Source of the DNA: Planctomycetota bacterium
GTDB lineage: Bacteria > Planctomycetota > Planctomycetia > Pirellulales > Pirellulaceae
Assembly: GCA_016872775.1 (NCBI GenBank)
Contig: VGZA01000012.1
Location: 1 to 64,000 of the forward strand
Direction: 5' to 3'
DNA: 64,000 bases
Shown here in pieces: positions 11,793 to 54,000 of the stretch (the first letter of the stretch is position 1; the number at the start of each line of letters is the position of its first letter). The position numbers and the translations under genes were made by a program. The notes beneath the pieces were generated by a model, which did not search any database, was not told the origin of the DNA, and was given only the letters and a program-made list of their open reading frames with translations.

Positions 11793-12149
11793 CTATTGCT
11801 TGGACTTGAGCAGCACCTCCGAGTACATCTCAGCGTCAAATCCGACCAGAAGCGTGTTGCCGACGCGCAAGGCCGGGGCACGCAAGTTGCCTGACGGACC
11901 GACCAGCAGCGACTGCAACGTTGCTTCGTCCGGCTGGACGGTCTTCAGTTCAAGGCGGATGACTTTCTTCCCTTTGGTTGCGTATAGCAATTTGACGCCT
12001 TGCAGCACGATGGAGATTTCATCAGCGGGAATCGTCGCTTTACGTGCGTCCACCTGTTCGTCGGGCTTCAGCCCATGCTTCGCAAGAAACTCTTGCGTAC
12101 GACCGCACGTCGTTCAGTTCGCGCGGTGATAACTCCATTTCGGATTCAT
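11793..12149 (-). CDS. ArsC/Spx-like redox protein, candidate selenoprotein
   Basis: Read through the in-frame TGA at 12,116-12,114, the gene encodes 118 residues starting MNPKWSYHRAN-U-TTCGRT. AGGGAG sits 9 nt before this ATG. The TGA falls where ArsC/Spx proteins have the first Cys of CxxC, giving U12-T-T-C15, followed by the helix QEFLAKHG, a VDARK turn, and the late segment LRAPALRVGNTLLVGFD with the cis-Pro typical of thioredoxin folds. A perfect hairpin begins 16 nt past the TGA. Without readthrough only an 86-residue fragment lacking the active site would remain. The fold points to a thiol/selenol oxidoreductase; the substrate is unknown. It is the last gene of DUF1080-tadA-this gene. 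A Cys-to-stop mutation or base-call error is the alternative. No Sec machinery gene is in the window. Confidence 0.78.
12081..12097 (-). promoter_or_regulatory. SECIS-like hairpin downstream of the TGA
   Basis: On the minus strand CGCAAGA and TCTTGCG form a perfect 7-bp stem with loop GTT. The loop begins 24 nt after the TGA and its first base is G, which fits the usual bacterial SECIS rules (loop some 16-37 nt from UGA, a G in the first loop positions). A smaller stem, ACGAC/GTCGT, lies at 12,099-12,113 between it and the TGA. Confidence 0.6.
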
Positions 12150-12201
12150 TTCGGTTAGCTCCCTGAGGGTCAGGATAAATCGGTCGCAAACGCAAAGACG
12201 G

Positions 12202-12666
12202 CTATTTCTTACCCGATCGACGCTGCGCTTGAAAGAACCCGCTGAGGATCGCGCCGCACCGATCGGCCAGTACGTCCGGAATGACTTCGCACTGGTGATT
12301 AAGTCGAGCGTCTTCGAGCAGTCGGAACAGGCTGCGTACGGCGCCCGCCTTCGGGTCGCTGGCGCCGTACACGACAACGGGCAGGCGCGCCTGGACAATC
12401 GCACCGGCGCACATGGAGCACGGCTCGAGCGTCACGCAAAGAACACATTGTTCCAATCGCCAGTCACCGATCGCGGCCGCGGCCTGGGTGATGGCAATCA
12501 TTTCCGCGTGGGCGGTCGGATCCTTGAGCTGTTCGCGCTGGTTGTGCGCCGATGCAATCAATTGCCCATCACGAAATATCGCCGCGCCGACAGGCACTTC
12601 GTCTTCCTGTAGCGCTTGCTCCGCCTCGCGCAACGCCTGCAGCATCCATTCGTCGTAGGGTGTCAC
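12202..12666 (-). CDS. tadA: tRNA-specific adenosine deaminase
   Basis: 154 residues, the normal TadA length. The zinc-deaminase motifs are complete: TAHAEM with the catalytic Glu at about residue 55, and EPCSMCAGA with the two zinc Cys. TadA converts A34 of tRNA-Arg(ACG) to inosine so it can read CGU, CGC and CGA. The matching tRNA-Arg(ACG) is at 57,250-57,323. It is 11 nt downstream of the DUF1080 gene and 52 nt upstream of the ArsC-like gene, so the three probably form an operon. Confidence 0.95.
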
Positions 12667-51019: not shown

Positions 51020-54000
51020 ATGCATGCAAAGATTACTCTGTTGGTTCTGGTTTGTTGCGTGGCCGCGGCCATGCCGGCGATCGCCGCCGACGAAACGACG
51101 ACGACGCGCGTGCCGTGGCGCTCGTCACGTCTGACCGGGTCACCCGACCCGCCGCCGCCCTTCGTGGCGACACACGCCTTTTCTGAAGTCCAGCTCAAAG
51201 AGCCTGTGTTCATTGTCTGGTCGCCGGATTTGAAACGGTACTTCGTCGGCGAAAAGCGCGGTGTCATTTCGTCGCTCGTGAATCGGCCTGATGCGAAACC
51301 GGAACTTGCATTCGACATCACCATGCAGCTCGACAAGTCCACCTGGCCCCAGCATGCCGGTGGCATCGATTCACTTTACGCCATCGCGTTCCATCCAAAA
51401 TTCGCCGAGAATCGCACCTGTTACGTCTGCTACACCTTGGCCCACAAGAACAACAAGGTGCCTAATCTGGCGGACGGTTCACGGGTCTCGCGCTTTCGCG
51501 TGCTCGACGAAAACCCGCCACGCCTCGATCCCGAGAGCGAAGAGGTCATGCTGACCTGGGAACAGGGCGGTCACAACGGGTGTGAGCTGAAATTCGGACC
51601 GGAGGGCTATCTCTACATTTCGACCGGCGATGCTCGACCACCCAATCCGCCGGATGAGCTTCACACCGGCCAGGACATCACCGACCTGTTGTCGTCGGTG
51701 TTGCGTATCGACGTCGATCGGCGCGAAGCTGGCAAACAATATGCCATCCCGTCCGATAACCCGTTTATCGGAATGTCGGTTGGCGAAAAATCGGCGCGGC
51801 CCGAAGTTTGGGCCTACGGCTTTCGAAACCCCTGGCGGATGAGCTTTGACCGCCAGACCGGCCAACTCTGGCTTGCGGACGTCGGGTGGGAACTCTGGGA
51901 GATGGTCCACAGGGTCGAACGCGGCGGCAACTATGGTTGGAGCGTCGTCGAGGGGCGACAGCTCATTCACGCCGACGATCTTCCGGGTCCGACACCCATT
52001 CAGACACCGCTGCTTGAATTGCCTCACACGATCGCCGCGAGCATTACCGGCGGATATGTTTATCGAGGCAAGCGGTTTCCGGAACTTGCCGGCGCCTACA
52101 TCTTCGGCGATTGGGAGTTCCGCCGCCTGTGGGCCGCGCAGTTTGAAAGTGACCGCCTGGCGTCGCTGACGGAACTCACGCGGCCAACCGTTCGTGTGGT
52201 GTCGTTTGGCGAGGACCCCGAGGGAGAATTGCTTTTCCTGGACTACGACACCGGGTTCGTGCACACACTCGAACGAAACGACGGGCGAGGCCGGAACGAG
52301 GATTTTCCGGTCAAGCTTTCCGACACGGGGCTATTCGCGCTCGAATCCGAACCGCGGCGCGGCGCGGAGTCGCCGGCCGCCGGCGTCATCCCCTTCGAAA
52401 TCAATGCGCCCCAATGGCAGGACGGTGCCCAGGCCCAGCGATGGCTGGCTCTGCCCGGGACATCGAGCATCACCGTCTACGGCGGCGAAGGCAAGCCGAT
52501 GCCGAGCCAGGTGTTCTGGCATAACTTCCGCTTGCATTTTCCCCAGGACGCGGTGCTCGTCAAAACCCTGTCGCTCGAGACGACTCCCGGCGATCCGGCA
52601 TCGCGACGCAAGATCGAGACGCAGCTGCTGCACTTTGACGGCGCCGACTGGCGCGCTTACTCGTACGCGTGGCGCGACGACCAGACCGACGCCGATCTGG
52701 TTCCCGCCGCCGGCGACGAGAAAACCATTGTTCTCCGGGATGACACTCAGCCGTCGGGGCAGCGTCCCTACGTGTGGCAATTCCAGGACCGCACCCAGTG
52801 CCTGCAATGCCACAGTCAGTGGCCACAGTACGCCATTGCGTTTAACCTGGCTCAGCTGAACCGTGATGTCGCATCGGACTCCGGCAGCCACGTCAATCAA
52901 CTCGTGCAGCTCAGCCGAACGGGGCACCTGGTTCGCCACGCGCTCGATGACAGCGTGCAACCACCGTATGACGCCCGGTCGGCAGCGGACGAGGATCGTT
53001 TACCCGACCCGTTGGATGCTGCCGCGGCGCCGATCGCGGCGCGCGCGCGTTCGTATCTGCACGCGAATTGCTCGCACTGCCACCGCTTCAATGGCGGCGG
53101 TATTGTCGGTCTCGATTTGTTATTCCAAAAGACCGTCGCCGAGGCCCGCATTCTTGAATCGCCGATCCGCGGCGATTTCGGGCTCCCTGAAGCGCGAATT
53201 GTCGCGCCCGGGCACCCCGAACGAAGCACGCTCTATTTCCGCATGGCCAAATTCGGTCGGGATCGAATGCCCCACGTCGGCTCCGAACGACCGGACGAGG
53301 CCGGGCTGCGGCTGATCGGCGACTGGATCGCTTCGTTGGATGCGAATGCCCAGCGAATCGACGATTCCCCAGCGGCGTCCGGTATCGAGCAACAATTGAC
53401 GCAACCACAGCTCGCCCAGCGCTGGGCGCGGCGGCTCGGCCGCGGCGAACTGCCGGCGGTCGAGCGAACGAGCCTGATTCGGGCCGCCATGTCGCTCGAA
53501 CCGGGTGCGGTGCGCGACCTGTTCGATGGCTACCTTCCCGTCGACGGTCACGAGCCCAAACTGGGCCCGCGACCAAGGCCAGCGTCGATCGCTGCGCACG
53601 CCGGAGACCTCGAGCGCGGCAAGAAACTGTTCTGGGACAAGTCGTCGAATTGCGCAACGTGCCACAAGATCGGCAACGAAGGCGTCAACCTGGGACCCGA
53701 GCTGACACGGATCGGGCAGAAGCGGACGCGCGACGAGCTGCTCGACAGCTTGCTGAACCCCTCGCGAACCGTCGACCCGGCTTTTGCCGCCTACCTGGCC
53801 GTCACCAAGGACGGCCGCCCGATCTCCGGACTGCTGGTGCGTCGTACCTCAACCGAAGTCGTCGTGCGCGACGCCAAGAACAAAGAATTTGCCATCCCCG
53901 TCGACGAACTCGAACGGCTCGCCGTTTCGCGCGTTTCGCTGATGCCGGACGGCTTGCTGGCCGGCTTCACCGCGCAACAGGCGGCGGACCTGGTGGCGTA

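Follow-up and report, generated by a model that had tools for sequence, protein, structure and literature searches.

Selenoproteins of the ArsC type have been reported since 2005 (PMC1088965; PMC1794560; PMC2398784, the set including a group with a UxxC motif). A 2026 review entered NF041106, a UxxC family, as an arsenate reductase-like selenoprotein (PMC13188914), and planctomycete selenoproteins and selenocysteine (Sec) genes have already been described (PMC4807772). Since both the family and the Sec genes of the phylum are published, a further planctomycete member is an ordinary finding. The window, that is, the whole 64,000-nt stretch of planctomycete DNA that was analysed, encodes such a candidate on its minus strand, together with the following features.

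11793-12149, minus strand: selenoprotein gene, predicted ArsC family (seleno)protein NF041106, 118 aa, Sec12, U-T-T-C motif, TAG stop
12114-12116, minus strand: in-frame TGA, predicted to encode selenocysteine; 50 homologues have Cys or TGA in the aligned column, Sec machinery in the genome
12081-12097, minus strand: bacterial SECIS apical hairpin CGCAAGA-GUU-UCUUGCG, 7 bp, loop beginning after 23 nt from the UGA
12159-12164, minus strand: Shine-Dalgarno-like AGGGAG, 9 nt before the ATG, from sequence
12202-12666, minus strand: upstream neighbour tadA (tRNA adenosine(34) deaminase), 158.2 bits against a cut-off of 150

Read from the ATG at 12149 down to 11793, the minus strand gives MNPKWSYHRAN-TGA-TTCGRTQEF..., and the rest of the frame is intact. 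The TGA at 12116-12114 is followed by TTCGRTQEFLAKHG, and the frame runs onward to TAG at 11795-11793, so that 118 residues result if the TGA is read through. The original prediction had placed the start, the AGGGAG motif, the TGA and the stop exactly where the sequence has them. It had also anticipated that an automatic call would begin at 12053 and miss the active site; the mechanical open reading frame (table 11) is indeed a GTG start at 12053 running to 11793, with 86 aa and no UxxC motif. Ordinary gene callers would thus report a truncated protein whose active site is lost. The adjacency to tadA is not conserved among the homologous loci compared, and an Rfam scan of the window at gathering thresholds returned a tRNA-Arg as its sole match.

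With TGA translated as Sec, the protein reaches 124.4 bits with NCBIfam NF041106, whose cut-off is 85, over model positions 3-107 of 107, and the TGA is the sole stop inside the matched region. The genome, of 5.85 Mb and 99.9% completeness, has no other NF041106 member. Across the phylum, 79 of 392 genomes have a member that passes the cut-off; in 69 of those 79, a copy contains a single in-frame TGA. A related-locus search with the single sequence recovered one distant relative only; the family search yielded far more. The original prediction held that the TGA replaces the first Cys of the redox motif, leaving UxxC, and this is borne out by the homologue alignment that it had proposed: all homologues examined have either Cys or TGA in this column. 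Among the 51 genes inspected, the first position of [U/C]xxC is TGA in 37, TGC in 12 and TGT in 2, and the TGA is always at that place. The window protein has the motif after YHR (YHRAN-U-TT-C) and agrees with an alignment of 45 sequences at each of its 15 invariant columns. One other genome of the set (G045, on C5 and C12) carries a Sec copy and a TGA-less copy together, a possible selenium-dependent swap pair.

The hairpin that had been noted behind the TGA is real and lies at 12097-12081. The published consensus for bacterial SECIS elements has a loop of 3-9 nt, a stem of 4-16 bp, a G in the first two loop positions, a distance of 16-37 nt from the UGA and a minimum free energy of at most -7.5 kcal/mol (PMC13188914). 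Every element of this consensus is present in the window hairpin, with its GUU loop, 7 bp and 23 nt; its 22-nt core has an energy of -8.5 kcal/mol, and 50 nt have one of -16.8 kcal/mol. Dinucleotide shuffling of the 50-nt stretch gives a z-score of only -1.95, so the SECIS case rests on position and conservation and not on energy alone. A GU occurs 23-24 nt after the UGA in 32 of the 37 TGA genes and falls inside a hairpin loop in 31 of the 37; these 31 hairpins have loops of 3 to 5 nt and stems of 6-8 bp. The exception, L048, has the GU in place and no comparable hairpin. None of the 14 Cys genes has such a hairpin at the SECIS position, though the GU is present there in three.

Stem changes that affect both sides and preserve the pair were seen (A-T to G-C, G-C to A-T and G-C to T-A), as were one-sided changes (A-T to G-T). 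When the same peptide was synonymously recoded in 1000 trials, 0.9% of the recodings matched the window hairpin in stem length and 0.3% matched it in energy; the corresponding medians for the Cys genes were 100% and 43%. Because the stem length and energy of the window hairpin are so rare among synonymous recodings, the result points to selection at the RNA level, beyond the amino-acid sequence. Five TGA-form loci from three other planctomycete families (L032, L040, L041, L042 and L047) have no GU at 23 nt and instead show a Cys-like ADDF/ADAF-type sequence at the SECIS position. Together with the hairpin-less L048, they may use a different type of SECIS. We consider it an evenly balanced proposition that, across much of the NF041106 family in Planctomycetota, a GUU-loop SECIS is almost fixed within the QEFL(A/G) codons, such that the RNA signal dictates part of the first helix, while in the Cys copies the hairpin was lost or never arose and the residues there are mostly other than QEFL. 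This would suggest a lineage-specific rule of SelB recognition, common to the SelW-like gene of the same genome.

The genome encodes SelA, SelB, tRNA-Sec and SelD, all of which were found in the search of the Sec machinery that the original prediction had called for, and a SelW-like gene lies close to two of them.

C26, 54169-56055: selB, 316 bits
C26, 56130-57485: selA, directly after selB, 538 bits
C26, 70311-70406: tRNA-Sec, anticodon TCA
C28: selD, 381 bits
C26, about 51822-52058 (L080:1498-1734): SelW-like gene (PF10262), MRVHLKYCAA-U-GYERQ, ~2 kb before selB-selA

The SelW-like gene has a CAAU motif and, 22 nt after the UGA, the GUU triloop of a GCGGUCA-GUU-UGACCGC hairpin. Its SECIS is of the same kind as that of the window gene, with a GUU triloop in both. 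The planctomycete thereby gains a well-supported selenoprotein, a second, SelW-like one and a complete Sec system. A second SelD-domain match in the same genome (L054; C13:89823-90731) sits in an 808-aa open frame and is possibly a fusion protein.

Other candidates for selenoproteins in this genome were set aside. Near selB-selA on C26, one frame with a single TGA (L079:12640-14235) looks like a spurious upstream extension, the protein beginning well after the TGA, and another (L079:7972-8385) shows no redox motif when read. The formate dehydrogenase matches in the genome are all below cut-off and comprise three large ones without an internal stop and one TGA-containing fragment with a weak match. 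With every match below cut-off and the large ones free of stops, they add no selenoprotein evidence.

SelB, recognised by its wing-3 domain, is encoded in 66 of the 69 TGA-form genomes versus two of the ten Cys-only genomes (Fisher P 2.6e-7, a nominal value that is uncorrected for kinship, as genomes of one phylum are not independent). The three TGA-form genomes without SelB are all assemblies of 79-84% completeness. The two forms of the family, Cys and Sec, thus track SelB. Eight genomes of the same taxonomic family as the window genome, within the 392-genome sample, have neither SelB nor an NF041106 gene. A maximum-likelihood tree of 51 genes needs six Sec/Cys changes. Well-supported branches force three or more of these, which means that the residue has switched repeatedly. 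The longest branch of the tree is that of the window gene, at 1.26 changes per site and with unsure placement, and its protein has a best identity of 54% to another member. Its score is also below that of most relatives in its taxonomic family; this and the long branch leave a small chance of relaxed constraint.

Such divergence would also fit a pseudogene, in which a chance change of a Cys codon to TGA left a decaying gene and at most the 86-aa fragment, and the gene is often missing in relatives of the same taxonomic family. We regard this history as very unlikely: the same TGA recurs in the majority of the genes inspected (37/51), the frame is intact on both sides of it with all invariant residues kept, and the hairpin is specific to TGA copies and accompanied by the full Sec machinery. 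The original prediction had likewise doubted a chance nonsense mutation, for which the shared TGA, the TGA-specific hairpin and the Sec genes leave little room. Decay after the same stop, which it had named as a contrary sign, is not what the homologues display; they keep the TGA and an intact downstream protein.

That the TGA is a wrongly sequenced TGC or TGT is extremely improbable, because a wrong base in the codon would not bring about the hairpin, which is present here and absent at that place in the Cys copies. It is scarcely credible that the code is reassigned genome-wide, with TGA standing for an amino acid other than Sec. No support for reassignment was found: TGA ends six of the 12 neighbouring window frames regarded as genes and hence behaves as an ordinary stop, the aligned residue is otherwise always Cys, and tRNA-Sec and SelB are present.

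We conclude that the locus is almost certainly a functional selenoprotein gene with a product of ArsC/Spx-like thioredoxin fold. An AlphaFold2 model, in which residue 12 was modelled as Cys, has a mean pLDDT of 92 and the strand/helix order of the thioredoxin type, with the Sec12 position just before the first helix. In Foldseek, the top-ranked PDB matches are Spx and ArsC-related proteins, at a TM of about 0.5; searching PDB sequences by profile returned the same neighbours. The predicted fold is thus ArsC/Spx-like. The original assignment to an ArsC/Spx type holds for this fold only, as the protein narrowly misses the gathering cut-off of classical ArsC (PF03960; 23.7 vs 24 bits) and comes nowhere near that of Spx/MgsR (TIGR01617; 28.9 vs 75.05 bits).

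From the computed gene, codon, SECIS, machinery and fold we infer Sec insertion and redox chemistry, in support of the earlier reading as a Sec-dependent redox enzyme. During translation, SelB and tRNA-Sec would decode the UGA at codon 12 as selenocysteine, guided by the GUU-loop hairpin 23 nt downstream. In UxxC redox proteins, Sec attacks and Cys resolves. Here, Sec12 would probably be the attacking selenolate, with a disulfide, peroxide or oxyanion as substrate, and the selenenyl-sulfide would then be resolved by Cys15 of the UxxC motif. Arsenate reduction would be only one possibility for the function, since the Pfam ArsC threshold is just missed; the protein is proven neither as an arsenate reductase nor as an Spx.

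Among known systems, the protein resembles Spx/MgsR (TIGR01617) and the YffB/ArsC-related proteins in fold and in the position of CxxC (PDB: 1z3e, 2m46, 1rw1). It falls far below the Spx/MgsR cut-off and shows no sign of RNA polymerase binding. The UxxS-type arsenate reductase selenoproteins from the Sargasso Sea and the GOS (TIGR00014) also belong to the ArsC superfamily and have Sec at the catalytic Cys, but they are of the classical ArsC subfamily, whereas the window protein is UxxC and below the Pfam ArsC cut-off. In the GOS selenoproteome (PMC2398784), arsenate reductase 2 (cd03032) likewise has an ArsC/Spx-type domain with UxxC; it consists of metagenomic sequences and is likened to the window protein by domain type and motif. 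The closest counterpart is NF041106, the 'arsenate reductase-like protein' of PMC13188914 (Table 1), with which the window protein shares UxxC, a nearly full-length match and a downstream bacterial SECIS. It has HRAN-U where most members have HRKG-U, HRNG-U or HRPG-U, and is more divergent near the N-terminus; its long branch sets it apart without a categorical difference. The window gene is a sound, somewhat divergent addition to this already published selenoprotein family.
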